DNA from: a virus
Length of the DNA: 48,931 bases
Strand: one strand, 5' to 3'
Virus record (IMG/VR): IMGVR_UViG_3300024518_004222
Coordinates: 1 to 48,931 of that record
Each line of letters opens with the position of its first letter. Position 1 is the first letter of the stretch. The position numbers were made by a program, and so were the translations under genes. Below the pieces are notes generated by a model. It did not search any database, had not been told where the DNA came from, and was given only the letters and a program-made list of their open reading frames with translations. This document shows, in pieces, positions 11,309-31,851 of the stretch.

Positions 11309-11315
11309 TGTGGTG

Positions 11316-16149: not shown

Positions 16150-16151
16150 GC

Positions 16152-17470: not shown

Positions 17471-17501
17471 CCTTTTTCTCCTCTTAAAAGGCGGTGATGT
17501 C

Positions 17502-18032: not shown

Positions 18033-18235
18033 AATCTCGTTTCTGTGCCATCGTTCGAAAATTCTCGGGAAGCACAATGATTCTCCAGAATCGTATCCCG
18101 CTCGACCGCGCGGGGTGGCGAGTTGTTCTCTCAAGGGCTAGGGCTCCAGATGGGTCTCGCTTATGGGCCGGCTGGAGCGTCGGCCAGATTGAAAAGGAGA
18201 GCGAAAGTGACGTGCAGCCCAATCAAAAATCCTGA
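18029..18235 (+). CDS. Small basic protein, 68 aa
   Basis: Starts in an ATGA overlap with the upstream stop. Basic, with RIPLDRAGWRVVLSRAR and a SRLWAGWSVGQIEKE segment. The next gene's GTG start lies within its end. Coupling supports translation; function unknown. Confidence 0.55.
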   Translation: MKSRFCAIVRKFSGSTMILQNRIPLDRAGWRVVLSRARAPDGSRLWAGWSVGQIEKESESDVQPNQKS

Positions 18236-18632: not shown

Positions 18633-18642
18633 CAACGAGTAG
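18352..18642 (+). CDS. Zinc-ribbon-like protein overlapping the previous gene
   Basis: 96 aa from ATG 18352 (MTTDPGSSNPKIPFG); the frame also has an ATG at 18328. Residues about 45-78 read TWKCSNGHSWTG...GIFCLRCLLD, a CxxxH...CxxC metal-binding pattern common in small phage proteins. It lies in the +1 frame of the 141-aa reading. Ribosome site GAGG is only 2 nt from ATG 18352, so initiation may be by coupling or the true product may arise by frameshifting. Confidence 0.58.
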   Translation: MTTDPGSSNPKIPFGEMDWRAESSRDLPLSTPCSPSTPPKRTWKCSNGHSWTGWKDTLRVSGHENLSGIFCLRCLLDILGTVEEVPRLPQAALDNE

Positions 18643-18704
18643 TACTTCGCTTACCTTTAGATTTGGCAATCAGTTATTTCAGTAACCCGAAGGAGAAAAG
18701 AACG

Positions 18705-19661: not shown

Positions 19662-19706
19662 TTAGCTCTCTTTCGATCCTTGTACTCAAGGACCGGAAGA
19701 GCAAAG

Positions 19707-19755
19707 CTTCCCCTGGCCGGCGTCAAATACCAGCAGGCCAGGGGGAGTCTTTTTT
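19707..19755 (+). terminator. Intrinsic terminator after serine protease gene
   Basis: 12-bp stem CTTCCCCTGGCC / GGCCAGGGGGAG (one T-G pair) with a 17-nt loop, followed by TC and a run of six T. It lies about 45 bp after the protease stop and just before the ribosome site of the next gene. Confidence 0.88.
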
Positions 19756-19772
19756 CTGGAAGGAGAACACAC

Positions 19773-20330
19773 ATGCAACGCGTCCTTACCGTTTACCTCG
19801 CCGGACCGATAACTGGCTGCTCGTACCAGGGCTGCACGGACTGGCGAGAGTACGTTACTAAAGAACTCGAGGACGAATTCGTCTGCCTTTCTCCAATGCG
19901 ATCAAAAGAGTTCCTCGAGAATAAAGGTGACATCGCCGATTCGTACAACGACCTGGAGGACAATAGTGAGCCCCACCGTGTCCTCACGAGCGACAAAGGG
20001 ATCAACAGACGAGATTCCTGGGACTGCCGTTCCACTGACGTAATCCTCATGAATCTGGCTGACTTGCCAGAGAATAAGGAAATCGAGCAAGCTATGCGGT
20101 TTCTTACAATTGTTTGGGACTTATGGGCTGTGGATGATCTTAAAAAGTGGCTCTATCGTGTCTCGATTGGCACCATGCTCGAACTCGGCATGGCCCGAGC
20201 GCTTCGAAAGCCGGTAATCTGCGTCATGCCCGAAGGAAATATCCATGAGCATCCAATGGTCAACGACATGATCGACTTCCGATGCTCCAACCTTCCGAAC
20301 GCCTTGGCCACGTTGAGGTCACTACGGTGA
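19773..20330 (+). CDS. Nucleoside 2-deoxyribosyltransferase-like protein
   Basis: 185 aa; ATG follows GGAAGGAGAACACAC. Family pattern: N-terminal VYLAGPITG strand-loop, DWREYVTKEL helix, LSPMR, CRSTDVILMNLAD in the middle and SIGTMLELGMARALRKPVI near the C terminus, with the catalytic Glu expected in TMLELG (Glu137). Such enzymes exchange or release the base of deoxynucleosides or nucleoside monophosphates. With DUF5664 and two HAD proteins it forms a nucleotide-pool kit, or might provide precursor for base modification. Confidence 0.85.
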   Translation: MQRVLTVYLAGPITGCSYQGCTDWREYVTKELEDEFVCLSPMRSKEFLENKGDIADSYNDLEDNSEPHRVLTSDKGINRRDSWDCRSTDVILMNLADLPENKEIEQAMRFLTIVWDLWAVDDLKKWLYRVSIGTMLELGMARALRKPVICVMPEGNIHEHPMVNDMIDFRCSNLPNALATLRSLR

Positions 20331-20340
20331 GTCACCTATT

Positions 20341-20529
20341 ATGCAATGCTCCTTACTTTGCCCATCACCGTGTGAAGGCAAGTCTCCGAAAGAGGCTGCC
20401 AAAGTCTGCACTCGTATGTTCAGGACTGAAACCGCGAAAAGACAAGAAGAATGCTCCTTGAGAGAAAGCGAACGACCGCAAGGGGTTGAGGGTGTAGTGA
20501 ATGTCGAAACACGACTACGTTCTGACTGA
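20341..20529 (+). CDS. Possible small cysteine-rich protein, 62 aa
   Basis: MQCSLLCPSPCEGKSPKEAAK; five cysteines, then a basic helical region. The ribosome site is weak and 29 bp overlap the next, better supported gene. The codon pattern is acceptable but support is modest. Confidence 0.42.
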   Translation: MQCSLLCPSPCEGKSPKEAAKVCTRMFRTETAKRQEECSLRESERPQGVEGVVNVETRLRSD

Positions 20530-20890
20530 AGAACAACGAGTGAAAGTTCAGTGGTTAATGGGCCTCTCCAAGACACCAGGTCAAGAGTGGACAGCGAACC
20601 TTGCCACCCACTTGGTTGATCTTTATACCAACGAAGACCATTACCGCCGCGCCTACGAGGTTGAGCAAGAAGTCAGTGAGCGCGCCGCAATCATGCTGGA
20701 GGAATATGCCGGCGAGATTCAGTGGCTTAGGGCGGACATCGACCAGGTCGTCAAACAAATGCCAGACGAGGGTTCAGTAGCGATGTGGAAGGAAGCCATT
20801 AGACTGTTGACCACGCCACGCAGCAAAAGGGAACAGTCGCCCGACGATGCCGTCCCAAGAAAGGAAGGGGAAAATGACACGAATCACTAA
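20501..20890 (+). CDS. Hypothetical helical protein, 129 aa
   Basis: Starts at ATG 20501 behind an AAGGGG/GAGGG stretch. Almost wholly alpha-helical: LTEEQRVKVQWLMGLSK, AYEVEQEVSERAAIMLEEY, IQWLRADIDQVVKQM. The ATG of the next gene lies 17 bp before its stop. Unknown function. Confidence 0.68.
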   Translation: MSKHDYVLTEEQRVKVQWLMGLSKTPGQEWTANLATHLVDLYTNEDHYRRAYEVEQEVSERAAIMLEEYAGEIQWLRADIDQVVKQMPDEGSVAMWKEAIRLLTTPRSKREQSPDDAVPRKEGENDTNH

Positions 20891-21182
20891 TAGCTTTGTC
20901 GGACCTGTTAGGGTCTATGATTACAGGGAATTGGAAGACGCCCTGAATGATACAAAGAATGTGCGAAAGCGCTCCTTACGCTCATCGCTATTGATCTGGC
21001 TCACGGTTCTCGTCCTCACATGCTCACTCGCTGGCAACGCGTTTTTAATCTCAGAGTACCAAAAGGTGGTCAAGGAGAATGAAGAACTACTTGGGGTGAT
21101 CGAGTTTGTCGCTGAATCCCTCTTGGATAGCGGCCCGGCGTTCGGGATACCGAAACTTAAGAAAATGCCACTAGAAACCTAG
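20874..21182 (+). CDS. Small single-span membrane protein
   Basis: 102 aa; AAGGAAGGGGAAA precedes ATG 20874. A membrane helix at about residues 37-60 (LLIWLTVLVLTCSLAGNAFLI) is preceded by a basic stretch (RKRSLRSS), giving an N-in topology, and followed by a short periplasmic coiled coil (QKVVKENEELLGVIEFVAE). Precedes the secreted 187-aa gene by 17 bp, so the two may act together in the envelope. Confidence 0.7.
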   Translation: MTRITNSFVGPVRVYDYRELEDALNDTKNVRKRSLRSSLLIWLTVLVLTCSLAGNAFLISEYQKVVKENEELLGVIEFVAESLLDSGPAFGIPKLKKMPLET

Positions 21183-21199
21183 CCCTTGAAGGAGACTGC

Positions 21200-21763
21200 A
21201 TGAGATTTCTACTGCTCTCTATTTTACTCTTGATCGCGCCGGCCGTATCCGCCCAGCCTCAGAGCGTCTTTGATGCACAAGTTGCATGTATGGAGGCTTA
21301 CGAAGCGATTGAAGACGCTTCGTTCGAGTACGAGGCATATAAGGCGAGTACGCTCCATGCATATACAATTGCCATGTCGTACCGCAACAGCATCGTGAAT
21401 CACCCCAACTACCAAGGACAGCCACTTGACCCGGGAGACACCCACATAACAATTGGTAACTTTTACTTCACTGAGTCGCTTGATGCTTTTGCGGAATCAG
21501 TGCCATACGCAACGAGCGGGATCAACAATCAAATCGCCGGCAGTGACGCTATGATACTGGAAGACTGGATTACCGCCGAGTATCACTTCTGGGAGGGCGC
21601 CGACGATTTCGTGGTTGCGACCGGGTACATTGAAATGGCGAAAGATCTGATGCAGCAAGCCTACGACGAATTTGTGTGCGCCGCAGTTTGGTTCTCCAGC
21701 GTGCTTGATGTATTAAATGGAGGCGGTGGAGGCGGTGGAGGCGGAACGGGAGATCCTCCGTAA
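21200..21763 (+). CDS. Secreted protein with Gly-rich tail
   Basis: 187 aa; strong AAGGAGACTGC site. MRFLLLSILLLIAPAVSAQ is a Sec signal peptide. The mature helical domain (ILEDWITAEYHFWEGADDF, AKDLMQQAYDEFVCAAVWF) resembles the 170-aa secreted protein at 12778-13290. The C terminus is a run of nine glycines coded by a GGAGGCGGT-type minisatellite, then TGDPP. Probably periplasmic; two cysteines in the mature part. Function unknown. Confidence 0.72.
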   Translation: MRFLLLSILLLIAPAVSAQPQSVFDAQVACMEAYEAIEDASFEYEAYKASTLHAYTIAMSYRNSIVNHPNYQGQPLDPGDTHITIGNFYFTESLDAFAESVPYATSGINNQIAGSDAMILEDWITAEYHFWEGADDFVVATGYIEMAKDLMQQAYDEFVCAAVWFSSVLDVLNGGGGGGGGGTGDPP

Positions 21764-21931
21764 GTTTTAACATCAGCCCCAGGAAGTGAGAATCTGAATG
21801 ACAGTGAACAAAAAAAGCAATAAAGTGGAAGCACGAGTCTAAGCCTTGTGAGACTTGACCCATGAGCCAGGCGAAGAACCTCCCGGAAGGTCGCTGGCAA
21901 GCATTTTGGGACGGCAAAACTAATCAAGGTT

Positions 21932-22001
21932 GGACCGGTACGCCAAGTAGAGCGGCCTGTAGAAAATCAGGTGAATCCGGGTTCGAGACCCGGACGGTCC
22001 A
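21932..22001 (+). tRNA. Atypical tRNA-like gene
   Basis: Seen: acceptor stem GGACCGG / ACGGTCC with one mismatch at pair 7, discriminator A, perfect T-arm CCGGG-TTCGAGA-CCCGG, and a short D-arm (CGC/GCG, 8-nt loop lacking the usual GG). The anticodon arm is GCCTG/CAGGT with an 8-nt loop TAGAAAAT, so no standard anticodon can be placed. No CCA is encoded. It may be a degenerate tRNA, a tRNA mimic or a frameshift-type tRNA. A weak 49-codon ORF also crosses the site but lacks a ribosome site. Confidence 0.5.
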
Positions 22002-22036
22002 TTGTTTTTGAAAACCCTTCGCAGGAGAAGTCTCTA

Positions 22037-22246
22037 ATGCTTAGCGATAAAGAATCGAGATGCCTGGAACTCAAATCGAGATACCTGAAACTTAAAAAAC
22101 AGACGCTAAAGAAAGAGATTTCCAACGCGCGACGAAGACAAGCCAAGGCTACGGCAGAGGTAACAGTTGCCCAGAGAAGGCTCGATCTATTTGAGGCTGA
22201 GGCTATTCTCCACGCCGTCACAGACGCCCCACCTGGAAGCCTGTAA
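22037..22246 (+). CDS. Small coiled-coil protein, 69 aa
   Basis: ATG 22037 follows CAGGAGAAG. Highly charged helix throughout (KSRYLKLKKQTLKKEISN, RRRQAKATAEVTVAQRRL). Unknown function. It follows the tRNA-like gene by 35 bp. Confidence 0.6.
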   Translation: MLSDKESRCLELKSRYLKLKKQTLKKEISNARRRQAKATAEVTVAQRRLDLFEAEAILHAVTDAPPGSL

Positions 22247-22257
22247 AAGGAGAAAGC

Positions 22258-22521
22258 GTGTACGAGTACAAAGTGTTACAGAAGAAAATCGTCGACGACA
22301 GAAGCTTCAGCAAGCTCATTAAGGAACACTTAGACAATGACTGGATCATCACTGAGCTAAGATTCTATAATCGTTCTTTTGCAGAAGGTTGCAGTTCGGC
22401 GTTTGGCTTCGCCATACTCCGCAAATCTAAACCCACCAACGTGAAAGAAAGCTTTGAATTAGCATGGATAAAGCAACAAGAAAGTCTATCGAGAAAGTTT
22501 GTAACGAGTTCGATAAACTAA
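22258..22521 (+). CDS. Small hypothetical protein, 87 aa (GTG start)
   Basis: GTG 22258 lies 6 nt after AAAGGAGA. Pattern YEYKVLQKKIV...LDNDWIITELRFY resembles the DUF4177-like fold (VQKKI ... ALNKLGEEGWELV), a small alpha/beta protein; this is a tentative reading. The last 58 bp overlap the next gene. Confidence 0.6.
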   Translation: MYEYKVLQKKIVDDRSFSKLIKEHLDNDWIITELRFYNRSFAEGCSSAFGFAILRKSKPTNVKESFELAWIKQQESLSRKFVTSSIN

Positions 22522-22823
22522 CTAAACAGATTAACATTTGTCGATCAGCTATCGAGAAGCTTAAAAAATACAATAGTAACACGTCAGAAACCAAGCCGGT
22601 GTGGTACGTAGAATTTTCGGGACGATCATACAAAGCCGATTGCGGTGATTGCATGACGTCAGTCACTGGCGCCGATTGTATGCGTCGTGGTTGCAAGACG
22701 TCAATCACTACCCTCGACTCTTTAAATATATTTAGCGACTACGCGCTTGCGAACGCGTTGTTAGGTTTAATTCAGCCGAGACTGAACTTCTTTATTGAAC
22801 AGCGGAGGAAGCTTACGTTATGA
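22464..22823 (+). CDS. Hypothetical protein, 119 aa
   Basis: MDKATRKSIEKVCNEF; N-terminal coiled coil, then a cysteine-containing centre (YKADCGDCMTSV, GADCMRRGCKTS) that might bind a metal, and a helical C terminus. Overlaps the previous gene by 58 bp and the following HAD gene by ATGA. Unknown function. Confidence 0.62.
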   Translation: MDKATRKSIEKVCNEFDKLTKQINICRSAIEKLKKYNSNTSETKPVWYVEFSGRSYKADCGDCMTSVTGADCMRRGCKTSITTLDSLNIFSDYALANALLGLIQPRLNFFIEQRRKLTL

Positions 22824-23104
22824 AAGTCGCAATCGACTACGATGACACGTACACGCTTGATCCGGAGTGTTGGGCCGCGATCATTGATCTTCTAGTTGAT
22901 CGCGGCCATCGGGTGATTTGTGTCACCTCTCGATTTGACCCCTTTGAATATCCTGAAGGCGAAGAAGAAATTATCGATCCCGTTCCGTGCCCGATCTTTT
23001 ACACTAACCGACGCGCGAAAGAAGAGTTCATGTTGTCCGAGCATGAGTACAGCGTAGACGTGTGGATCGATGACAATCCAGAGCGGGTCATTAAGCCGTT
23101 TTGA
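22820..23104 (+). CDS. Minimal HAD-superfamily phosphatase
   Basis: 94 aa. Motif I AIDYDDTYTLD (Asp6, Asp8), motif II ICVTSRFD (Thr/Ser), and motif IV WIDDNPERVI at the C terminus. No cap domain, so it is like the small phage-encoded HAD enzymes that act on accessible phosphate groups. ATGA overlap with the upstream gene. A second HAD enzyme lies at 16334-16897. Confidence 0.8.
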   Translation: MKVAIDYDDTYTLDPECWAAIIDLLVDRGHRVICVTSRFDPFEYPEGEEEIIDPVPCPIFYTNRRAKEEFMLSEHEYSVDVWIDDNPERVIKPF

Positions 23105-23163
23105 AGAGAGCTACCATAAGGCGTCTAACACCTAACAATTCGCCTAGAAATGCAGGATAACCC

Positions 23164-23244
23164 ATGGAAATGACTCTCGTCTACCTTACCGTGGCATGCC
23201 TGCTCGTGACACTGTTCTTCTTCTGGAAGGACAGCATAGAATGA
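23164..23244 (+). CDS. Tiny membrane protein, 26 aa
   Basis: MEMTLVYLTVACLLVTLFFF is a single membrane helix, ending WKDSIE. Its stop overlaps the next ATG (ATGA). Coupling and the membrane pattern support expression; the upstream ribosome site (AGGATAACCC) is moderate. Confidence 0.55.
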   Translation: MEMTLVYLTVACLLVTLFFFWKDSIE

Positions 23245-23351
23245 AGCACCTCTGTTTATTCATTCTCGCCGGGTTCTTCTGGATGGAGGGACACTTCTCG
23301 ATCGCGATTGGGCTCGTCATCTTGGGTCTTTTCCTGGCAAAAAAAGATTGA
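23241..23351 (+). CDS. Tiny membrane protein, 36 aa
   Basis: MKHLCLFILAGFFWMEGHF then IAIGLVILGLFLAKKD: two hydrophobic segments separated by EGHFS. Starts in ATGA overlap with the 26-aa gene and ends 5 bp before the next ATG. A holin-like micro-protein pair is possible, but no lysis gene adjoins. Confidence 0.55.
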   Translation: MKHLCLFILAGFFWMEGHFSIAIGLVILGLFLAKKD

Positions 23352-23356
23352 GTGCT

Positions 23357-23653
23357 ATGTATCGCAGACCACAAGACCGACGTGGCGCCGCTGAGCACCG
23401 ATTAAAGCGATCAGGTCAAGATCCCCTTCTCAGTTGGCGGTGCTTAAATCGTCGGTGTAAATGCTTTTGGTGCTGGAGACATAACCAGAGCCAAAAAGAA
23501 CGTTATCGGAATTGGGCGGACGAAAGTATCGAAGAATATTTGGACAGCGAATATCTGGATGATTACTACCGGTATGAGGACATGGACCGGTTCCAATGCG
23601 ACTATTACGGCGATTGGGGGCCCTCAGACACCCCGTGCCCTCGAGGTCGTTAG
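23357..23653 (+). CDS. Small protein with Cys-cluster and acidic Tyr/Asp-rich tail
   Basis: 98 aa. Basic N terminus, CLNRRCKCFWCWRHNQ cluster that could bind zinc, then an acidic aromatic stretch (DSEYLDDYYRYEDMDRF). Last gene before a 700-bp gene-free region; a stem GCCCTCGAGG / CCTCTGAGGGC covers its stop codon (23637-23668) and may terminate transcription. Confidence 0.58.
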   Translation: MYRRPQDRRGAAEHRLKRSGQDPLLSWRCLNRRCKCFWCWRHNQSQKERYRNWADESIEEYLDSEYLDDYYRYEDMDRFQCDYYGDWGPSDTPCPRGR

Positions 23654-24350
23654 GCGGCCTCTGAGGGCCTCTCAGGCGGTATCGACCACTTTCACTCCTT
23701 TGTCGCCCCTTTGCCATTCAGAGCAAAGCATCGTAAGTTCTTTCGTAGTCTTAACTTACGACGTTCGGCACGAAAAAAGTTATGCGCGCGCCGAGGCTCC
23801 CCAATAGGTACTAGGGCGCATGGCACCCGGGGGTTCTGGCAACAATCTGCGCTCGAACGCGCGCATTCTAAGCGGAAACTCGCGCGATCTACCACTTCTA
23901 ATCGCTTTCGCGCGCGATCTACTACCTTTGTAGAGGTCGGTCTAGTAAGCATCCAACGATGGAATCTCGCCGGCCCCACCTCTCTTCAACTGGCTCAAGC
24001 GCTCGCTATCATGCCATATTCGTGCCAGGTGCCACACATAGCCTGGCGGGGTAGGTTTGCGCGTATAGATAGATAATCTATATCAGAAAACGATCGTTTT
24101 ATGAGACAGTTGAGTCTCGCATAAGTAGGCTTTCAGTGTCACTGAAGACGATCGATACGACCTGCTTTTCTATCGACTTCCTTGCTCGATCGGCCGCGCG
24201 CCGGCTGCGATAGTCAATGTATCGAGCGACCACCTAACAAAAAGTATTTCACTTATTCTGTATTTCTGTACGGATTTTCTATTGACTTGCGAAGGTGACA
24301 GTAGAGAATGCGAATACAAGACCAGTACTCTCACAAAAAGGAAAAGCGCC
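23654..24350. promoter_or_regulatory. Gene-free control region, possible origin or early promoter area
   Basis: About 700 bp without a convincing gene. It holds a 9-bp inverted repeat TCGTAAGTT/AACTTACGA (23731-23761), a 12-bp direct repeat CGCGCGATCTAC (23881 and 23911), the palindrome cluster at 24070-24146, and two similar elements TTTTCTATCGACTTCC and TTTTCTATTGACTTGC, the latter (near 24275-24290) carrying a -35-like TTGACT about 70 bp before the next gene. Possible roles are promoter, operator or replication origin; none is proven. Confidence 0.55.
24070..24146. promoter_or_regulatory. Cluster of palindromes (operator-like)
   Basis: Within 77 bp: TAGATAATCTA (24070-24080), AAAACGATCGTTTT (24087-24100), GAGAC-6-GTCTC (24103-24118) and TTCAGTG-T-CACTGAA (24132-24146). 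Such consecutive short palindromes typify repressor operators or initiator sites. Confidence 0.55.
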
Positions 24351-24743
24351 ATGAAGATCGAAGTGGATTACCAAGTGATCTGCGGCAACATCGGGACCGT
24401 TTATAGCGGGAACGACTGGAACGAAGCCAAGCGAACCTACAGCGAATACAAGCGACAAAGCCAAGACGACTACGGTCGGGCTAGTGGCGAGCCTGTCACC
24501 CTGATGGAGGACGATGAACCGAAGTGGGAACATATCGGCACCGCGGACACCTCCGTGACGCGCTTTCGCGACCTCGCTTTAAACCAGTCTTTCGAATTTG
24601 ATCGTTCCAACTTCTCACATAGTGGCATGGAACACGGTCCATGGATTAAGACTAGCGCACGATGCTACGAAAAACCAGGCATGAAGTGCCAGGTTGGTTC
24701 GATCAACGTCCATGTTCTCACGCGCGAAGACTACGAACGTTAA
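24351..24743 (+). CDS. Conserved phage-type hypothetical protein, 130 aa
   Basis: ATG 24351 follows AAAAAGGAAAAG. N-terminal MKIEVDYQVICGNIGTVYSG; the second half reads TSVTRFRDLALNQSFEFD ... GPWIKTSARCYE ... VGSINVHVL, a pattern I have seen in small phage and plasmid proteins of unknown function. First gene of the accessory train downstream of the control region. Confidence 0.7.
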   Translation: MKIEVDYQVICGNIGTVYSGNDWNEAKRTYSEYKRQSQDDYGRASGEPVTLMEDDEPKWEHIGTADTSVTRFRDLALNQSFEFDRSNFSHSGMEHGPWIKTSARCYEKPGMKCQVGSINVHVLTREDYER

Positions 24744-24771
24744 CCCTTCCTCTTACCATTGGAGAATTGAC

Positions 24772-25023
24772 ATGCTTGAATGCAAACCCTGCAACCTGAC
24801 GTTCAGAGTCGGTCGCACGTGCCGCCAATGTGGGCGAAAACTCATCAATGAACTGGAGTACTCAAAACCAAAGCTGCGAGAGGATGTTGACATACCGTCA
24901 TATGATCCGTACGGGCCACTCGTTCGATGCAGTCGATCAACACGAGTAGAACCACAGCGCCCACTTGGCCACCCCATCCGCCTGAACCGCAATGGTAAGC
25001 GGTTACGTATCAAGTCGAACTAG
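24772..25023 (+). CDS. Small zinc-ribbon protein, 83 aa
   Basis: ATG 24772 follows TTGGAGAATTGAC. N terminus ECKPCNLTFRVGRTCRQCG gives two CxxC pairs, a zinc ribbon. The rest is basic and proline-containing. Possibly nucleic-acid binding. Followed directly by the first full copy of the intercistronic hairpin cassette. Confidence 0.65.
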   Translation: MLECKPCNLTFRVGRTCRQCGRKLINELEYSKPKLREDVDIPSYDPYGPLVRCSRSTRVEPQRPLGHPIRLNRNGKRLRIKSN

Positions 25024-25100
25024 GAAAGGGGGCAAGGAAGTCCTTCCGCGCTCTACGGAGTTCGGAAGGACTTCCCTTTCCTCTCACATCGGAGTACAAG
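25024..25100 (+). repeat. Intercistronic hairpin-leader cassette, copy 1
   Basis: 13-bp perfect stem GGAAGTCCTTCCG / CGGAAGGACTTCC (25036-25075), then CTTTCCTCTCACATCGGAG and the next start codon. The 3' part (TTTCCTCTCACATTGGAG family) recurs before the genes at 25514, 25980, 26448 and 27000, and in diverged form at 24772 and 29669. Confidence 0.8.
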
Positions 25101-25481
25101 ATGAAGGAAAACAATAATCGCATCGCTGACAAGGTAAAGATATATTGGTATTCACAAGACCCTGAAAACACGGGACGAACATGGTCGATTTTCTACAGCG
25201 ATGAACATGAAGAAAGTGGTAACATGGACGACAGCGATCTTTCGTACGTCGCTAGCCCAGCAGAACTTCGCCAATCTTTAGTCAATTTGCTGTACAGCGA
25301 AGGCATCGAAATAGGACGCGGCCTAATTACGCTTGATCGCGCGTTGTGCGTCGCTAAACTAGCAGAACTTCGCCAATCTTTAGTCAATTTGCTGTACAGC
25401 GAAGGCATCGAAATAGGACGCGGCCTAATTACGCTTGACCTCGCGGACGGCAGATATGTAAAGTGGACTCGTGACACCTAA
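25101..25481 (+). CDS. Hypothetical protein with recent internal tandem duplication
   Basis: 126 aa. The segment AELRQSLVNLLYSEG...LITLD occurs twice, 34 residues apart, because a 78-bp stretch is repeated exactly. Without the duplication the protein would be 92 aa (N-terminal KVKIYWYSQDPENTGRTW, C-terminal DGRYVKWTRDT). Unknown function; probably an alpha/beta accessory protein. The duplication is in frame. Confidence 0.7.
   Translation: MKENNNRIADKVKIYWYSQDPENTGRTWSIFYSDEHEESGNMDDSDLSYVASPAELRQSLVNLLYSEGIEIGRGLITLDRALCVAKLAELRQSLVNLLYSEGIEIGRGLITLDLADGRYVKWTRDT
25259..25438 (+). repeat. 78-bp perfect in-frame direct repeat
   Basis: Bases 25259-25336 and 25361-25438 are identical, offset by 102 bp (34 codons). 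Absence of any mismatch, even at silent positions, indicates a very recent event or an assembly artefact. Confidence 0.92.
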
Positions 25482-25513
25482 CTCTCCCTTTCCTCTCACA
25501 TTGGAGTATGATC

Positions 25514-25900
25514 ATGAAGACAGAAAGAATTATCAAGCTGATCAAAAACTACCAAGAGCAATGTAGTAACCTCTTCAACAGCGCGATCCGTTTTCAACGG
25601 ACGCATGACGACCTTTGTGAATTTTATATGACTAATGTCCTAAGGGAGGATACTTTCAAGCGACTACCGCGCTGGGCACAATGTGAAGTACGTGGATATT
25701 GGGAAGCTCTCTATCAGCAAATCTGGCAACATGTCGAGTTTTCCTACGTCGTACCCGATGGTTCACGACAGTTGATCACAAGTGATGCTTACCGCGCAGT
25801 ATCGCCGCAGGAGATTCACGACCAACATTCGACTACCGGCTGTCACATCTGGCGCGACGCGCCCCACAAGCTATTCACTGAGCCAATAAAATGTGGTTAA
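25514..25900 (+). CDS. Hypothetical protein, 128 aa
   Basis: Start at the second ATG (25514), 7 nt after TTGGAG; the first ATG at 25508 is too close. Helical N-terminal half (ERIIKLIKNYQEQCSNLF), then AQCEVRGYWEALYQQIWQH and a C-terminal part with HIWRDAPHKLF. Preceded by the short TTTCCTCTCACATTGGAG leader without hairpin. Unknown function. Confidence 0.65.
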   Translation: MKTERIIKLIKNYQEQCSNLFNSAIRFQRTHDDLCEFYMTNVLREDTFKRLPRWAQCEVRGYWEALYQQIWQHVEFSYVVPDGSRQLITSDAYRAVSPQEIHDQHSTTGCHIWRDAPHKLFTEPIKCG

Positions 25901-25905
25901 CTAAT

Positions 25906-25979
25906 CAGGGCATGGATGCCCCTCTAGGCTTTGCGAAGCTTAGAGGGACTTCCCTTTCCTCTCACATTGGAGCATGATC
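25906..25979 (+). repeat. Intercistronic hairpin-leader cassette, copy 2
   Basis: Palindrome GGGCATGGATGCCC, stem CCCTCTA.GCTT-TGCG-AAGC.TAGAGGG (25920-25947), then ACTTCCCTTTCCTCTCAC and ATTGGAG before the start codon. Nearly identical to the copy at 26373-26447. Confidence 0.82.
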
Positions 25980-26366
25980 ATGGAAATCGACGTAACCCGC
26001 TATAGTGACAATCGCGAAGACATGATACAATTCAGCGCATCGCAACATGAACTAGGTCCAGACGCTGGGACGATTACATGGAACAATTCCGTAGCGGAAG
26101 CAAAGCTTCGCCCGCTTTTGACGACCTGCCACGAGATACGCGAAGCAAAAGGGTGGCTCGCCGAGTTCGGCGCGTGGACCAAAGACGAGATTCAAAATTG
26201 GACTTGGGACGAAACCAACGCGTTGATCCTACAGTTTATTGCGGGCGACTTGCGCGAAATCGAACACTACGAAAGCTTGGAAGCGTACCAAGCCGACGAA
26301 AACAACAGCGGTAGGCTATACCACAACGAGGTACTCGGCGAATGGTGGTTTTGCATTGGTTGCTAG
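25980..26366 (+). CDS. Phage/plasmid accessory protein of conserved unknown family
   Basis: 128 aa from the second ATG (25980), spaced correctly from TTGGAG. The C-terminal half WDETNALILQFIAGDLREIE followed by YQADENNSGRLYHN...WWFCIG is a pattern shared by small accessory proteins of phages and conjugative plasmids, often near antirestriction genes. An ArdA-like acidic DNA-mimic role was considered but is not established; the protein is moderately acidic. Confidence 0.68.
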   Translation: MEIDVTRYSDNREDMIQFSASQHELGPDAGTITWNNSVAEAKLRPLLTTCHEIREAKGWLAEFGAWTKDEIQNWTWDETNALILQFIAGDLREIEHYESLEAYQADENNSGRLYHNEVLGEWWFCIGC

Positions 26367-26372
26367 GAAGTA

Positions 26373-26447
26373 GGGGCATGGATGTCCCTCTAGGCTTTGC
26401 GAAGCTTAGAGGGACTTCCCTTTCCTCTCACATTGGAGAACTAAGTT
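26373..26447 (+). repeat. Intercistronic hairpin-leader cassette, copy 3
   Basis: Contains GGGGCATGGATGTCCC, the same CCCTCTA...TGCG...TAGAGGG hairpin (26386-26413) and the same TTTCCTCTCACATTGGAG leader as copy 2, differing at only a few positions. Confidence 0.85.
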
Positions 26448-26918
26448 ATGGCAACCGAACACTGGGCAGATGAGATTGGCAAACCTGTTTTTAGTTCAAT
26501 CGCTGAAATGTTGGCTGCAGTCAATGTAGATTTTGATCGGCTTTCGGAACTTCGCGACGATTATGAAAGCAACCAACTAGATTTCAGTGAAGACGACGCG
26601 AAAGAACTAGCCAATCTAAAAGAAGCTGCCGGAGAGTGCGAAGATAAGGAGCAGGCTCAACAGCGAATCGAGGAAGATCCGCTCAGTATTGAACTCGGCG
26701 GCTGGTGGATACCTAGTTCAAGTCCCAGGGCAACAGAATATCGTATTTTACTCACCTCTGGCGGGCCAGCCGTACGCATCGTTGGTGAGTTAGGTTGGTT
26801 TCATGAACCCACTACAGCGAAGCTGGAGGTCCAAGATTGGTTTAAGCCTTGGACGGAATATCGCTGCGAAGAATCTGTCTTACTCGAATACGTAGCTCAA
26901 CTTTATTTGGGGGAATAA
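26448..26918 (+). CDS. Conserved mobile-element protein of unknown function
   Basis: 156 aa. Order of motifs: SIAEMLAAVNVDFDRL; acidic helix DDAKELANLKEAAGECE; EDPLSIELGGWW; then EYRILLTSGGPAVRIVGEL and VQDWFKPWTEY, ending LLEYVAQLYLGE. I recognise this arrangement from a widespread family in phages and plasmids; no biochemical role is known to me. Acidic overall. Confidence 0.75.
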   Translation: MATEHWADEIGKPVFSSIAEMLAAVNVDFDRLSELRDDYESNQLDFSEDDAKELANLKEAAGECEDKEQAQQRIEEDPLSIELGGWWIPSSSPRATEYRILLTSGGPAVRIVGELGWFHEPTTAKLEVQDWFKPWTEYRCEESVLLEYVAQLYLGE

Positions 26919-26925
26919 GATAAGT

Positions 26926-26999
26926 CGGGACAAGGAAGTCCCTCTAAGCTCTGCGGAGCTTAGAGGGACTTCCCTATCCTCTCACTGGAGAAATGAGCT
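26926..26999 (+). repeat. Intercistronic hairpin-leader cassette, copy 4
   Basis: Strongest copy: 18-bp perfect stem GGAAGTCCCTCTAAGCTC / GAGCTTAGAGGGACTTCC with loop TGCG (26934-26973), then CTATCCTCTCACTGGAG before the next ATG. The compensated stem changes relative to copies 2 and 3 show that pairing is conserved. Confidence 0.88.
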
Positions 27000-27221
27000 A
27001 TGTACTGCACACTCACCCCGGCTTATGGTCGCGACTACCGCTCACGTTCAGCGGTCTTAACTGATTTCGATGATGGCAAAGACTTCATCCTAAACGACAT
27101 GTCGTCGCGCTGGGATGGCAAGTCGGCTAACCGCTCGCAACTAATTAAAGCGGGCTATAAACAGGTCAGCTTTCGTTATGGCAAGCTTCGGAAACAATTC
27201 CCACACATGATCGAAGGATGA
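27000..27221 (+). CDS. Small conserved accessory protein, 73 aa
   Basis: MYCTLTPAYGRDYRSRSAV, DFDDGKDFILNDMS, then SQLIKAGYKQVSFRYGKLRK. This TPAYGRDY...KDFIL...R.GKL pattern occurs in small phage and plasmid proteins of unknown function. Five bp before the next gene. Confidence 0.72.
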   Translation: MYCTLTPAYGRDYRSRSAVLTDFDDGKDFILNDMSSRWDGKSANRSQLIKAGYKQVSFRYGKLRKQFPHMIEG

Positions 27222-27225
27222 ACCA

Positions 27226-27957
27226 ATGTCAACCAATGGATTCATTGTGTACGACGGTCCAAGTCTAATCGGCGACAAGTCGCCCATCATTGCAATCGTG
27301 ACGGGGACTAACCGTAAGACAAAAAACAGAAAAACAGGCGACCTGCTACAATTGTGGATTATCCCGCGCAACGTATCGCCGGTAACCGCACTAGTGAATC
27401 GGCGAAACTCTGGAGTATGCGGTAATTGCCCATTGCAGGGCGACAGCTTTAAAGGTCGGACTTGCTATGTCAACGTTGGGCAAGCACCGAAGCAGGTTTG
27501 GAACACGTACCGAAGGGGGAGCTATCCCGCTTTATCTCCCGCGCAATCTAACCACTTATTGCGTGGTCGTAAGATCCGGCTTGGCGCGTACGGCGACCCG
27601 GCAGCAATCCCCATCCCAATTTTACGGCGGCTCGTGAGATACACGATCAGTCAAACTGGATACTCGCATAGCATGCTCGATATCCCGTGCAATCGTGCTG
27701 ACGCGCTAGCGGAGCTCGTCATGTATTCCGCCGATACGCCAGAGCAACATGAACAAGCCATTACTCGCGGTTGGCGCTCGTTTCTTGTGGTACCGCAAGG
27801 GCGAAAGTTCTTTCAACTCGATACGGTAGCCTGCCCCGCTATGAAGGGGCGCCAGTGTGCCGATTGCATGCTTTGCTGTGGGACCTCGCGCAAGGCGCGT
27901 AATATCTGGATTGAAGCGCACGGGAAACAAGGCAAAACATTCTCCTGGGAGGTTTAA
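27226..27957 (+). CDS. Conserved phage protein, cysteine-rich, 243 aa
   Basis: Reads GPSLIGDKSPIIAIVTG, RKTGDLLQLWII, then VCGNCPLQ...CYVNVGQAPKQVW, and a C-terminal CPAMKGRQCADCMLCCG cluster. This is the widespread phage family with two cysteine clusters that probably bind metal; its function is unknown to me. ATG lies 4 bp after the previous stop. Confidence 0.8.
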   Translation: MSTNGFIVYDGPSLIGDKSPIIAIVTGTNRKTKNRKTGDLLQLWIIPRNVSPVTALVNRRNSGVCGNCPLQGDSFKGRTCYVNVGQAPKQVWNTYRRGSYPALSPAQSNHLLRGRKIRLGAYGDPAAIPIPILRRLVRYTISQTGYSHSMLDIPCNRADALAELVMYSADTPEQHEQAITRGWRSFLVVPQGRKFFQLDTVACPAMKGRQCADCMLCCGTSRKARNIWIEAHGKQGKTFSWEV

Positions 27958-27960
27958 CTA

Positions 27961-28155
27961 ATGTACCATTTTCGGAACGCGTTACAACGACAAGCAGCAA
28001 TTAACAACGTTGAACAACTTGATACCGCCAGGCGCTGGTGGAAGTGGGACACAGCCGGACGCACTAATCCGGAGCCCTCGGCACCTAAAGGGACCTCGCC
28101 CATTAGGTGGAAGGCAATGTTAAGACGTTATCACAGAACCTTTCTAGAAGGATAG
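27961..28155 (+). CDS. Small basic protein, 64 aa
   Basis: Starts 3 bp after the previous stop, with the GGGAGGTTTAACTA ribosome site inside that gene's end. Basic and aromatic (ARRWWKWDTAGR, RWKAMLRRYHRTFL). Unknown function. Confidence 0.6.
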   Translation: MYHFRNALQRQAAINNVEQLDTARRWWKWDTAGRTNPEPSAPKGTSPIRWKAMLRRYHRTFLEG

Positions 28156-28159
28156 AGCA

Positions 28160-28351
28160 ATGGAATTACTTTACGTCAGTATTCTTTGCTTCTTTGTGAT
28201 CTTTCCCGTTTTAGTGGCTGCGGATCACTACTTTGAGTATCCACGTCAAACGCTCCAAGACATCGGCGAGACAATTGCCTTTCTGCTCTTTGTCGGCATG
28301 ATACTGTTTTGTATCATTCGTGTTACCTTAGTATTTTTTGGCATCTGTTAG
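28160..28351 (+). CDS. Small two-helix membrane protein
   Basis: 63 aa. Two membrane helices: ELLYVSILCFFVIFPVLVAA (about 2-22) and TIAFLLFVGMILFCIIRVTL (about 38-57), separated by a short polar loop. GAAGGATAGAGCA ribosome site, 4 bp after the previous stop. Holin-like topology, but no lysis enzyme is nearby, so no role is assigned. Confidence 0.62.
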   Translation: MELLYVSILCFFVIFPVLVAADHYFEYPRQTLQDIGETIAFLLFVGMILFCIIRVTLVFFGIC

Positions 28352-28363
28352 AAGGATAGGATA

Positions 28364-28477
28364 ATGAAAGAGATTCTCAAAACCGTGTATGCGATTACTG
28401 AAATGGGCGTAGTAGCCCTCCTTATCGTGGCTTCACTTGCTTACGCTGCCTACTCTATCATCGGACCGTCTTATTGA
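28364..28477 (+). CDS. Tiny single-span membrane protein, 37 aa
   Basis: MKEILKTVYAITEMGVVALL continues IVASLAYAAYSII; one membrane helix. Preceded by GAAGGATAGGATA, the same type of site as the previous gene. Its last codons form the 5' arm of the folded RNA element 28470-28596. Confidence 0.6.
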   Translation: MKEILKTVYAITEMGVVALLIVASLAYAAYSIIGPSY

Positions 28478-28596
28478 GATTGGAGACCTCAAGGCTCGAT
28501 ATGGCCTTCCAGATTGGCGCCTAACGAGCGCGGGAAGGCCCCATCGAGGTTTGATACTTGTCGTTTCAAGCCCGTTAGACGTTCAGTCTCAATAAG
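28470..28596 (+). ncRNA. Structured intergenic RNA element
   Basis: Closing stem CTTATTGAGA / TCTCAATAAG (10 bp, 28470-28479 with 28587-28596). Inside: long helix CTCGAT..GGCCTTCC / GGAAGGCC..ATCGAG with a 2x2 internal loop, capped by a GCGC/GCGC mini-stem; and a small CTTG/CAAG hairpin on the 3' side. The element ends about 10 nt before the next start codon, leaving the GGGGAAGAGC ribosome site just outside. A riboswitch-like leader, processing site or small RNA are all possible. Confidence 0.6.
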
Positions 28597-28606
28597 GGGA
28601 AGAGCT

Positions 28607-28780
28607 ATGAAAGAGCAATTCATTTTACTTTCCGGCAACGCTGTGGAGGGGTACTGTTATACCGGGCCATTCGTCAGCGCTAGAGAATGCGTACATTACG
28701 GAGACAGCTATTACAATGATGGCACCTGGATTTGTGCTGTTCTAAAACCGCCACTTGACGAAACCAAGACATCCGATTAG
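28607..28780 (+). CDS. Small hypothetical protein, 57 aa
   Basis: ATG 28607 (MKEQFILLSGNAVEGYCY) immediately downstream of the structured element, behind GGGGAAGAGCT. Beta-like N terminus, then ARECVHYGDSYYNDGTWIC. If the element is a switch, this is the gene it controls. Unknown function. Confidence 0.62.
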   Translation: MKEQFILLSGNAVEGYCYTGPFVSARECVHYGDSYYNDGTWICAVLKPPLDETKTSD

Positions 28781-28829
28781 TATTGTGGTGTCTACTGTTC
28801 TTTCTCTTACCCCCAAGGAGATGCTTGTT

Positions 28830-29585
28830 ATGAACCTCACCTTGCACGCCGGCGCTCATTTAGTGGACCTAGAGCAAGTCTGTAACGTCCCGACGCCTGA
28901 ACCAAACAGAAAATGGCAACCGGTTCCACATGGTCAGCTTGTGGAATCAGTCACTTCCGAATTGGTAACAACCGGATTTAAAGTCGTTAGCGAGTCTCAC
29001 TCCCTCATGTCTGATGGGGACCGCTACTTCGGCATGCTCGAAGTCGTCAATGGAGAGCAGCACCCCGACTATAATCTGGTGATCGGCCTACGGAACTCGC
29101 ACGACAAGTCATTCGCGGTTGGTCTGGCGGTTGGAAGTGGCGTGTTCGTGTGCGATAACCTCGCTTTCTCTGGTGAAGTCACAATTATGAGAAGGCACTC
29201 CCGATACGTCCAGAGGGATTTACGCGGCCTGATCCATCGTGCTGTTGGCAGTATCGGCGACTTGCGAAAGTCCCAAGATCATCGTATCGCATGCTACAAG
29301 CGCGCCGACATGTCTGACAACTCGTTCCACGATCTCCTTGTCCGCGCGGTTGACGTCGGGGCTATCCCGGTGACAAAGCTGAAAAACGTCCTGCACGAAT
29401 GGCGGACGCCAATTCATGACGAGTTCACCGAAGATGGTCAGACCGGGTGGCGCGGTTTCAACGCCTTCACCGAGATTCTTAAACAATTCCCGAACGTTAG
29501 CGAGTTGGCGCAACGGACCCAGAAGCTTCACGGCCTGTTCGATGCACGCTGTGGCGTCAGCGACAACTTGAAGCTTGCGACATAA
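28830..29585 (+). CDS. DUF932-family phage/plasmid protein
   Basis: 251 aa. ATG 28830 is chosen; an ATG 9 bp upstream abuts the AAGGAG site. Reads HAGAHLVDLEQVCNVPTPEP, WQPVPHGQLVESVTSEL, GFKVVSESHSLMSDGDRYFG, then LVIGLRNSHDKSFAVGLAVG. That is the DUF932 (TIGR03299-like) signature, a family common in phages and plasmids without established function. Followed by another hairpin-leader cassette. Confidence 0.85.
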   Translation: MNLTLHAGAHLVDLEQVCNVPTPEPNRKWQPVPHGQLVESVTSELVTTGFKVVSESHSLMSDGDRYFGMLEVVNGEQHPDYNLVIGLRNSHDKSFAVGLAVGSGVFVCDNLAFSGEVTIMRRHSRYVQRDLRGLIHRAVGSIGDLRKSQDHRIACYKRADMSDNSFHDLLVRAVDVGAIPVTKLKNVLHEWRTPIHDEFTEDGQTGWRGFNAFTEILKQFPNVSELAQRTQKLHGLFDARCGVSDNLKLAT

Positions 29586-29593
29586 GGCTCGCT

Positions 29594-29668
29594 AGGGCAT
29601 GGATGCCCCTCTCTGCTCCATGGAGCACTGAGGGGTGTCCATTTTCCTCTAACATAGAAAGGAAAGTT
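29594..29668 (+). repeat. Intercistronic hairpin-leader cassette, copy 5 (diverged)
   Basis: GGGCATGGATGCCC palindrome followed by CCCCTC...GCTCC-A-TGGAGC...GAGGGG (29621-29660) and ATTTTCCTCTAACATAGAAAGG. Same architecture as copies 2-4 with different stem sequence. Confidence 0.7.
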
Positions 29669-29884
29669 ATGGAAACTCTCGCAGGGACGCGAGTCGTGAA
29701 GAGCAGAGTCGAGCCGAACGAGCATGGCCACCCAGTGGCGATACCGTGTTGCGTTCGCGCTTATGTGCTTTTAGGCAACGGGCGAACTCAGCATTTCTAC
29801 TCGGGCCGTACCGAGAAAGAAGCTATCGCTAACGCGGTCCGGGACCTGCCCGGACTCCAGTACAATTGGAAGCGATACGACTGA
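29669..29884 (+). CDS. Small hypothetical protein, 71 aa
   Basis: ATG 29669 (METLAGTRVVKSRVEP) with AAAGGAAAG upstream. Alpha/beta pattern: CCVRAYVLLGNGRTQHFYSG then a helix EKEAIANAVRDLPG; looks like a dsRBD-like small fold, which is a guess. Followed at once by a terminator. Confidence 0.65.
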   Translation: METLAGTRVVKSRVEPNEHGHPVAIPCCVRAYVLLGNGRTQHFYSGRTEKEAIANAVRDLPGLQYNWKRYD

Positions 29885-29938
29885 GTATCCTGAATGCGGG
29901 CCTCGTAATGTACTTGGCCCGCCCTTTGGATACTTTTT
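29885..29938 (+). terminator. Intrinsic terminator
   Basis: Nested stems GTATCC / GGATAC and GCGGGCC / GGCCCGC, followed by TTTTT, starting one base after the stop codon of the 71-aa gene. Confidence 0.85.
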
Positions 29939-29960
29939 ACTTCCCCGGAAAGAGAGGACC

Positions 29961-30155
29961 ATGATGATGGTAGAACGAAATGGCTCAGTTTTCCACTGCA
30001 ACGAAGAGGAACTTGAACTTCTCAAACAGGTCGACCGAAGTAATAAGAGCTTGCAGGGCGCGGAGCATCCACTGGTCAGGGACGAACGGACGCACAACGA
30101 GGCATTGGACCGTGCTTTTTCTATCGTACTACCCCCTCCAAGAAGGAGGTCGTAA
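29961..30155 (+). CDS. Small acidic protein, 64 aa
   Basis: Three in-frame ATGs follow AAGAGAGGACC; the first is used. Helical (NEEELELLKQVDRSNKSL), ending in PPPRRRS that contains the ribosome site for the next gene. Unknown function. Confidence 0.55.
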   Translation: MMMVERNGSVFHCNEEELELLKQVDRSNKSLQGAEHPLVRDERTHNEALDRAFSIVLPPPRRRS

Positions 30156-30156
30156 T

Positions 30157-30453
30157 ATGATCACTGACGAACAAGCGAGAGAAATCGCCAAAAATCCAGA
30201 CGGGTGCGACCTTACCGAACTGGCCGATCTTGTTTATTACATCGACGCGGGCCCCTGGCGCGCAGCGCGGCGACTTTGGGGCGCCACTCCAGGATTCAAG
30301 CCCGTCATCACGGTCAGGATGATCGGAGTTTACTGCCGGTCCTGTATCAAAGACCGAAAAGCCCGACAGTCGGGAAACATCCTAAAAGCTTTTCGCCACG
30401 AGTACACGGCTGACACGATTTACAATAACCTGCCCAAATCAATTAGGTGGTGA
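30157..30453 (+). CDS. Hypothetical protein, 98 aa
   Basis: ATG 30157 follows AAGAAGGAGGTCG. Contains a CRSCIKDRKARQSG segment and helices DEQAREIAKNP and ILKAFRHEYTADTIY. Next start is 1 bp after its stop codon. No family recognised. Confidence 0.65.
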   Translation: MITDEQAREIAKNPDGCDLTELADLVYYIDAGPWRAARRLWGATPGFKPVITVRMIGVYCRSCIKDRKARQSGNILKAFRHEYTADTIYNNLPKSIRW

Positions 30454-30454
30454 A

Positions 30455-30640
30455 ATGACGAGTTCATTTGTCGTTCACGAGGCGTATTGCGGCTGTGTGG
30501 CGAAGGTCGACCCCAAGACGAGACACATTGCAAAGGTCTATCGCGCCTGTAAAGGTCTCGAAAAAGAAATCGAGAAGAACCGTAAGGGCGCCGTTGCTCG
30601 ACATCTCCGAAGAGAGCTTAAACGAATGAGGACAGTATGA
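30455..30640 (+). CDS. Small basic protein, 61 aa
   Basis: ATG behind TTAGGTGGTG. N terminus VVHEAYCGCVAKVDP, then a basic helix LEKEIEKNRKGAVARHLRR. Overlaps the following gene by ATGA. Unknown; a nucleic-acid-binding role is possible from charge only. Confidence 0.62.
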   Translation: MTSSFVVHEAYCGCVAKVDPKTRHIAKVYRACKGLEKEIEKNRKGAVARHLRRELKRMRTV

Positions 30641-30825
30641 GCAAGATCGTCAAGCGAAAAGACGGCTATTGGATCATTGGGCTCCCCAGCAATTGGCCCG
30701 ACCATGGTCCGTATGATCGGAAAGCAGACGCCCAAGATGACGAAAAGGGGTTGCTGCGAATGCACGCGAAGCATATCGCGTACTGGCAGAAGGTGGAAAA
30801 TGATCGCGCACCAGCGGAAAGCTAG
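30637..30825 (+). CDS. Small hypothetical protein, 62 aa
   Basis: ATGA-coupled to the previous gene. Beta start IVKRKDGYWIIGLPSNWPD, then helical DDEKGLLRMHAKHIAYWQK. Last gene of the plus-strand block; its stop codon lies in the loop-proximal part of a strong hairpin. Confidence 0.62.
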   Translation: MSKIVKRKDGYWIIGLPSNWPDHGPYDRKADAQDDEKGLLRMHAKHIAYWQKVENDRAPAES

Positions 30826-30834
30826 TGCGCGATC
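30802..30834 (+). terminator. Hairpin at end of plus-strand block
   Basis: Perfect 10-bp stem GATCGCGCAC / GTGCGCGATC around the last stop codon. No T-tract follows, so termination may be weak or Rho-assisted. Confidence 0.5.
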
Positions 30835-31227
30835 GGCTCAGTCCCATCACGGACATGAATCTTCAGTAGGTTGTATCACGCTCTCTTCTTTGAGATAGTC
30901 AGTATGTTTCAAGCAGAGTCAGGCGTCAACTTCCTTGGCCTCCACGGGCTATCTAACAACTTCCTCGACCTCCACGGGCCAGCCCCGAGACTTTCTCCAG
31001 ACGCCACCTATGATCTCACCTAATTCTCTTTCCATGCCTTATTCCACCTTTCATCTGCTGGCATGCACTCGGCAGAGTAACCACCACCTCTCTCCTCTCT
31101 CGCTCCTATAAATAGGAGCGAGGAGAGAGATGATGGGTAGGTCACTCTCGCCGGTGTGCCCCGACCTTAGACCAGCGATCTCGACCTTAGAGATCCCTAA
31201 GGTCCAAATGAGGTCGAAGGGTATCAG
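30835..31227. repeat. Convergent junction with duplicated gene-tail fragment
   Basis: About 390 bp with no convincing gene. Bases 30961-31008 repeat 31273-31320, the 3' coding part of the next minus-strand gene, with one mismatch; a shorter related piece lies at 30931-30950. A 10-bp inverted repeat TCGCTCCTAT/ATAGGAGCGA (31100-31121, 2-nt centre) sits mid-gap and could act as a bidirectional stop signal. Confidence 0.7.
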
Positions 31228-31851
31228 TCAGGTTGCCAAGATCCGCATGAGATCACCGTCCGCCTCGCGGTATTCCTCGACCTCCACGGGCCATCCCCGA
31301 GACTTTCTCCAGACGCCACCGGCTAGGTTGCCAATCCTCACTTCGGCCTTAGTGATCTTCTGAAGCTGGAGCGAAGGCCACGCAGGAAGCTGGTGACGCT
31401 CTCTAAGGCACTTTGGCTGCTCTCGAGAACTCCGAGCCACTTTCGTCCCGAGAGCTCGTGAGAGGCACGCTGAGAGCCCCACGGAGGAAACGACGACGTC
31501 AGCAGCCGACAGAATTGGCGACCATGTTTTCTCGATGATCCCAGGATTCTCCGCTACCAGGTCGACCAAGCCGTAGAAATATTTGAGCTTAGCGCCTACC
31601 ACCTCACGACTTAGCTCCGAATTAGGACCCAGCCAGACGTTGGTCGCCTTGTGATAGAGCCACATCGATTCTAACCAAGTGAACCAAGGTCGGATGATCG
31701 CAATCACCGTGTGATCAGTATGAGACAGCGGTAAACCGTGCCGGTCACTCCCCTGCGTACTGAAGCCGGCTTTGTGTAAGGTCTTTTTTGCAGCGTAATA
31801 CCCCGAAAGCGGAGGCGCGATTACACAGTGTGTGTCTTCGACGAAAAACAT
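31228..31851 (-). CDS. Hypothetical protein, faintly sulfotransferase-like
   Basis: 207 aa. VIAIIRPWFTWLESMWLYH after an N-terminal PPLSGYYAAKKTLHKAG recalls the PSB loop helix and 3'-PB (IxRxPxxRxxS) region of sulfotransferase-like phage proteins, but the catalytic loop is not clear. C-terminal half is basic (RALGTKVARSSREQPK). Overlaps the preceding gene by 31 bp; AAGGAG is 11 nt upstream. Its tail is partly duplicated in the adjacent intergenic region. Function open. Confidence 0.6.
   Translation of the reverse strand: MFFVEDTHCVIAPPLSGYYAAKKTLHKAGFSTQGSDRHGLPLSHTDHTVIAIIRPWFTWLESMWLYHKATNVWLGPNSELSREVVGAKLKYFYGLVDLVAENPGIIEKTWSPILSAADVVVSSVGLSACLSRALGTKVARSSREQPKCLRERHQLPAWPSLQLQKITKAEVRIGNLAGGVWRKSRGWPVEVEEYREADGDLMRILAT

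Follow-up and report, generated by a model that had tools for sequence, protein, structure and literature searches.

Hairpin-and-leader modules between accessory genes of an uncultivated temperate phage probably mark gene boundaries as folded RNA

Why are the small accessory genes of a phage repeatedly separated by a hairpin of one family and a similar ribosome-binding leader? The question is raised by an uncultivated temperate phage from the IMG/VR virus record IMGVR_UViG_3300024518_004222 (positions 1 to 48,931; the whole stretch of 48,931 nucleotides that was analysed is called the window). The window encodes an integrase at 43095 and, in a leftward block, the large terminase and an exonuclease. 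The small genes form a rightward block at approximately 16.3 to 30.9 kb.

A sister contig in IMG/VR, IMGVR_UViG_3300024520_000123, is 99.9% identical. It is the only source of TerL relatives among viral contigs, and none were found in genomes. Relatives of the integrase were found in Planctomycetota genomes (approximately 32% identity) and none among known phages, and therefore a planctomycete may be proposed as the host, as a weak guess.

Results

The block contains a single family of 65-nt repeats, whose five copies align without gaps (starting at 25030, 25908, 26374, 26928 and 29595). Each is formed by a hairpin of 16-18 pairs and a pyrimidine-rich leader with the Shine-Dalgarno (SD) box. 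All copies are on the coding strand, in the same orientation, and each occupies the gap that separates a stop codon from the following start: the module begins a few bases past the stop codon, and its SD box ends approximately 6-10 bases ahead of the start. The features of the block are as follows.

24743..24764, plus strand: leader-only copy CTTCCTCTTACCATTGGAG, before gene 24772
24772..25023, plus strand: small gene, 83 aa; family search without a match
25030..25094, plus strand: module copy 1, upstream of gene 25101; hairpin at 25036-25075 with a TACG loop; SD box GGAG in the leader; folding z-score -4.7
25101..25481, plus strand: small gene, 126 aa, in which 102 bp are duplicated in tandem and in frame
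25485..25506, plus strand: leader-only copy, exact leader, before gene 25514
25514..25900, plus strand: small gene, 128 aa, hypothetical
25908..25972, plus strand: module copy 2, upstream of gene 25980; hairpin at 25914-25953 with a TGCG loop; leader; z-score -1.9
25980..26366, plus strand: small gene, 128 aa; phrog_24784 at 1e-17, a family without assigned function
26374..26438, plus strand: module copy 3, upstream of gene 26448; hairpin at 26380-26419 with a TGCG loop; leader; z-score -3.7
26448..26918, plus strand: gene, 156 aa, hypothetical; homologues 42-44% identical in the unrelated phage contigs L007 and L008
26928..26990, plus strand: module copy 4, upstream of gene 27000; perfect 18-bp hairpin at 26934-26973 with a TGCG loop; shortened leader; z-score -5.9
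27000..27221, plus strand: small gene, 73 aa, hypothetical
28800..28820, plus strand: possible degenerate leader CTTTCTCTTACCCCCAAGGAG, before gene 28830; weak
29595..29660, plus strand: module copy 5, upstream of gene 29669; hairpin at 29601-29640 with a CATG loop; diverged leader; z-score -5.1
29669..29884, plus strand: small gene, 71 aa, hypothetical

The sequence-only reading of this DNA had placed a hairpin and a leader ahead of genes 25101, 25980, 26448, 27000 and 29669, and the leader alone ahead of 24772 and 25514. Its positions and description hold with small corrections: both elements are present in all five places, as members of one repeat family, and the two leader-only copies are confirmed. 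The perfect stem of up to 18 bp is real and belongs to copy 4. The TGCG loop, said to be frequent, is found in three of the five copies, but not in copies 1 and 5. The module hairpins are the dominant structures of the block, and some folds add a 3-bp extension at the base of the stem, beyond a small internal loop. Rfam gave no match above the gathering score; the sub-threshold matches were to microRNA-like stems only.

Seven places share the leader TCCTCTNAC followed by an SD box, the copy of gene 29669 being much diverged. The leader TTTCCTCTCACATTGGAG has four occurrences at zero or one mismatch, where 0.01 would be expected. It is exact only at 25489, 25955 and 26421 and has one mismatch at 25077. 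Bases have been lost at 26975 (TATCCTCTCACTGGAG), and the copy at 29643, before gene 29669, has strongly diverged (TTTCCTCTAACATAGAAAGGAAAG). The calculated accessibility of the SD box is inconsistent among the copies (0.39-0.80). Sequestration of the SD box by the leader was considered and rejected: it is plausible in single folds, but the z-scores are near 0 and the copies disagree.

The stems had been said to differ by compensating changes, with pairing under selection, and this is supported. In the ungapped alignment core (18 stem pairs, five copies), nine pairs are invariant, two have changed on one side, and seven on both sides. Thus two-sided changes make up seven of the nine variable pairs, and 89% of cells are paired; none of 500 shuffles of the partners matched the observed values. 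If the partner is slid by one to three columns, just 0-1 two-sided pairs are left. Copy 1 differs from copy 4 by eight substitutions and keeps 17 pairs, compared to approximately 12 under random substitution; copy 5 has ten substitutions and keeps 16 pairs, compared to approximately 11 (P about 0.002 in both cases, starting from the perfect copy 4 with the observed numbers of substitutions). The covariation evidence for selected pairing is good but not overwhelming, as it comes from a single genome of one phage lineage, with five copies of which two are nearly identical.

On the coding strand the loops read UGCG in three copies and UACG in one, copy 5 having no UNCG loop, and the loop change between copies 1 and 4 falls solely at the N of UNCG. 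Hairpins with UNCG loops and at least eight uninterrupted pairs were observed three times, with 0.25 expected per strand, and occur nowhere else in the window. The non-Watson-Crick pairs include five G-U pairs on the coding strand and one on the other strand, although these numbers are small. The two-sided changes, the loops and the G-U bias agree with an RNA hairpin in the message. Since base pairing survives changes of letters, the module probably acts as folded RNA.

The history of the copies seems to involve recombination within the genome. Copies 2 and 3 are 98% identical, differing by one base, which in copy 3 restores a pair; yet their neighbouring genes are unrelated, and therefore modules have been exchanged between gene neighbourhoods. 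The left arm of copy 2 has three differences from copy 5 and six from copy 4, whereas its right arm has one difference from copy 4 and seven from copy 5. The same is seen in both copies by halves: the 5' half is closer to copy 5 (3-4 differences, compared to 5-6 for copy 4) and the 3' half to copy 4 (one difference, compared to seven for copy 5). The U x U and C x A mismatches in the chimeric arms of copy 2 are located where the copy-5-like and copy-4-like parent arms differ. Copies 2 and 3 are best read as a copy-5-like left arm joined to a copy-4-like right arm by inter-module recombination, with a later change at a mismatch.

The module is known from two contigs only, the window phage and its sister, and no copies were found elsewhere in the window. 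Among known phages there are no relatives of the module block at the DNA level, near or distant. The leader search of viral contigs retrieved the sister only. The search of 84,980 species genomes gave eight single matches, two of them directly before ATG (L037, L038). These were rejected as true modules and attributed to chance, because they have no hairpin and there is one copy per genome in the two that were checked. Relatives of the MCP (49-71% identity) have structural genes in common with the window phage and nothing else, except for one with a DUF932 homologue; they contain no leader copies, and just three hairpins in total score as intergenic. Absence of copies from relatives, which the sequence-only reading took as counting against it, is observed for all relatives except the near-identical sister, and the array is thus lineage-specific.

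Do the genes travel with the modules? The proposal that each gene carries its own control unit is not supported. The homologues of the gene 26448 product in L007 (44% identity) and L008 (42%) have no window-phage module. The 27226 family is widespread, with 147 known phage records; the homologues of its product elsewhere also have no module, and repeat searches of contigs with this family showed no equivalent array. In L007 the homologue of 26448 is preceded by another repeated unit, unrelated to the window module and belonging to L007 itself. It consists of the palindrome GTTCCCGGGAAC and an SD leader and is present in 19 copies (18 exact and one with one mismatch) in a 37.5-kb contig, nearly always just ahead of a start codon. 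Thus the module belongs to the phage lineage rather than to the genes. The palindrome GGGGTAGATTACCCC of G006 was considered as another such array and rejected, as by eye its printed flanks have no SD box with a start.

Discussion

We hold with moderate confidence that the module is an intercistronic RNA element, in which a UNCG-capped barrier or processing hairpin, forming mRNA ends, is combined with a standardised ribosome-binding leader. It would mark gene boundaries on a shared message, probably as folded RNA. This reading is preferred because the loops, the wobble bias and the two-sided changes favour a stable RNA, and because there is a precedent for stabilisation of mRNA by UNCG hairpins of phages. 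Indeed, a passage of PMC8948821 (citing Tuerk 1988) describes CUUCGG hairpins as common in phage intergenic regions, one of them stabilising the gene 32 mRNA of T4.

The block is likely to be transcribed as a polycistronic accessory operon. The nearest plausible sigma-70-like promoter is at 24282-24309, ahead of gene 24351, and a scan confined to sigma-70-type sites found none inside any of the five modules. Just past the upstream stop codon, the coding-strand transcript is predicted to fold into a very stable hairpin. The latter most likely acts post-transcriptionally, as a block to an exonuclease or as a target of a double-strand nuclease such as RNase III. The upstream message would gain a protected 3' end and the downstream message a protected 5' end, and the leader with the SD box of the next gene would provide each gene with an equivalent, insulated ribosome-binding site. 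The copies may have spread and been shuffled by recombination between modules. The stems would be short for a full RNase III site (approximately 20 bp or more) unless the 3-bp basal extension forms.

The main rival is that the hairpins are leaky intrinsic terminators (attenuators) directly before the ribosome-binding site, with less transcript for each successive gene and CUUUCCUCUC as a weakened U-tract. We consider this possible, although rather unlikely. The stem is followed by CTTTCCTCTC or a similar tail with 4-6 T per nine bases, interrupted by C, and it is possible that such a tail is pyrimidine-rich enough for leaky termination. The tail scores are approximately 2.9-3.2 in copies 1, 2, 3 and 5, where the 95th percentile of the window is 3.2; a terminator consensus scan flags copies 2 and 3. 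The same order of a hairpin and an SD box occurs in the structural operon of the phage, with T8 at 3681 and T6 at 11272, and also at 1108 with CTTTACTGA. However, the structural-operon hairpins have no sequence relation to the modules, and the module tails score far below the T8 hairpin at 3681. A T run is absent from all five copies, and the lowest tail score (2.3) belongs to copy 4, whose stem is the strongest. Terminator-like matches in the region number 16, with 17.1 expected by chance. The module hairpins are intermediate between terminators and plain stems; the earlier statement that they have no T-tract and are not classical terminators holds as to the T run and is reasonable, though tentative, as to the terminators, the tails being C/T-rich and intermediate.

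It is improbable that the inverted repeats act at the DNA level, as sites for a repressor or activator with possibly a hidden promoter, as was proposed for the ESAS of Cluster K mycobacteriophages. The position and the array do resemble SAS/ESAS, and the invariant palindromes of L007 look like operators. However, the arms in the window change together so as to stay paired, and no fixed half-site is kept; in DNA, UNCG loops and G-U polarity would be meaningless; and the sigma-70-type scan found no promoter in the modules. Even less probable are recombination joints or selfish repeats, kept for gene shuffling or as a small mobile element. The near-identical, chimeric copies 2 and 3 beside unrelated genes fit this explanation, and in Cluster O phages intergenic repeats have been inferred to recombine (PMC4351075). 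Template switching at quasi-palindromes is another possible source of two-sided changes, but not of the loops and the wobble bias. The single orientation and the exact stop-to-SD position in all copies argue against it, as does the absence of copies outside the block or in relatives; neither target-site duplications nor an encoded recombinase were noted. Recombination accounts for the spread of the modules, but not for the retained SD box and loop. Finally, we regard as a long shot a switch in which the conserved UCCUCU of the leader has two alternative partners, the SD box and the GGG flank at the foot of the hairpin. Formation or cleavage of the hairpin, or the binding of a protein of the phage, would then switch the translation of every module-bearing gene at once. 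If true, this would be a phage-wide RNA regulon of repeated start-associated switches.

Comparison with known systems

The closest parallels to the intercistronic RNA element proposed here are SAS/ESAS of Cluster K mycobacteriophages and the CUUCGG hairpins of phages. Both SAS/ESAS and the window modules have a short conserved sequence with a ribosome-binding site a few bases before starts of accessory, non-structural genes. In both there is a mixture of leaders alone and leaders with a repeat, in one strand orientation: approximately half of SAS are immediately preceded by an inverted repeat of about 17 bp, and here an 18-position repeat precedes five of the seven clear leaders, with a fixed 4-nt spacer, whereas the ESAS spacer is variable. 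However, the SAS sequence is unrelated to the window-phage leader; the 13-bp SAS GGGATAGGAGCCC has one match with two mismatches in the window, at 38130, with 0.86 expected, which is the chance level. The arms of ESAS have little support for RNA pairing according to their authors, whereas the arms of the window modules support it. SAS are scattered across half the genome and occur in many phages; the window module is confined to one block and one lineage. A later study places SigA-like promoters inside ESAS (PMC11373665), and no sigma-70-like site was found in the window modules. Since the sequence differs and a SigA-like promoter was not found, the window phage is not a member of the Cluster K SAS/ESAS group.

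Similar to the hairpins of T4 and other phages, as described in the cited passage of PMC8948821, including the one that stabilises the downstream message, the window hairpins are very stable, UNCG-capped, intergenic and on the coding strand. They differ in having UGCG or UACG loops, closed by C-G in copies 1 and 4 and by U-A in copies 2 and 3 (CATG in copy 5), and longer stems (16-18 pairs); in addition, hairpin and conserved leader are here joined into one unit that is repeated.

In the early region of T7, a polycistronic message is divided by intercistronic RNase III hairpins between the genes, closely followed by the next ribosome-binding site. The window has the same arrangement, but its stems are shorter and lack the known anatomy of T7 sites, and their cleavage is putative. 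Ten RNase III sites are known in T7 (PMC9135205).

The 17-bp palindromic repeats of Cluster O are also inverted repeats in short intergenic regions that recombine with each other, but their arms are invariant, they occur within genes too, and they have no tie to start codons (PMC4351075). They resemble the L007 array more than the window array. Phage morons have a promoter and a terminator of their own and are mobile as whole units. The window block also has small accessory genes separated by control elements, but no promoter was found in the modules, and there is no evidence that genes and modules move together.

The module thus works like a UNCG intercistronic hairpin fused to a start-associated leader, and is a local variation on elements that other phages are known to have. 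Cluster K mycobacteriophages already provide one example of repeated start-associated modules, for which no function is known. The window array seems to be an RNA-type version, with covariation favouring a folded hairpin, and the L007 array an operator-type version in an unrelated phage; this suggests that standard start modules for accessory genes arise independently in different phages. The old question about SAS can thereby be tested in a further system, and the window module, being short and self-contained, with a hairpin and an insulated ribosome site, is a natural comparison for engineered insulators.

Structured elements and repeats

A strongly structured element of about 150 nt (28465-28612) is situated immediately upstream of the gene near 28608. 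It is closed by the long stem CUUAUUGAGAUUGG/CCAGUCUCAAUAAG, and its folding was compared with that of shuffled sequence (MFE -57.4, z -4.1, 0/200 shuffles). No match to this element was found in Rfam. It is a candidate new cis-acting RNA. Promoter-like sites are about twice as frequent in 16000-31500 as expected by chance (23 versus 11.5, sd 3.0), and several of them lie around 28290-28461.

Several repeats were observed in the window. The small gene 25101 contains an in-frame tandem duplication of 102 bp (25244-25445, 94% identity). The exact leader copies at 25489, 25955 and 26421 are separated by two intervals of exactly 466 nt, as two unrelated genes each have 128 codons; this is probably a coincidence. 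A 48 nt direct repeat (30961-31008 and 31273-31320, 98% identity) lies close to the convergent junction. The right arm (38366-38582 and 44740) carries short repeats, CTCTTCCAGCGTTGGTATGT and AGCCTTACGTAGTT, three copies each.

The palindrome GTTCCCGGGAAC occurs 19 times (18 exact copies, one with a single mismatch) at 14975-35486 of IMGVR_UViG_3300048997_000349, the phage contig that encodes a homologue of the 26448 product and lacks the module. Nearly all copies lie immediately 5' of GGAG(AG) and a start codon. They form an independent, "operator-like" start-associated array.

The structural operon has junctions where a hairpin is followed by a Shine-Dalgarno site:

Hairpin-then-Shine-Dalgarno junctions
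1108-1147, minus strand
2585-2611, minus strand
3681-3711, minus strand, T8 tail
11272-11309, minus strand, T6 tail

The hairpins at 3681 and 11272 are immediately ahead of the next gene, and their tails look like those of true terminators.
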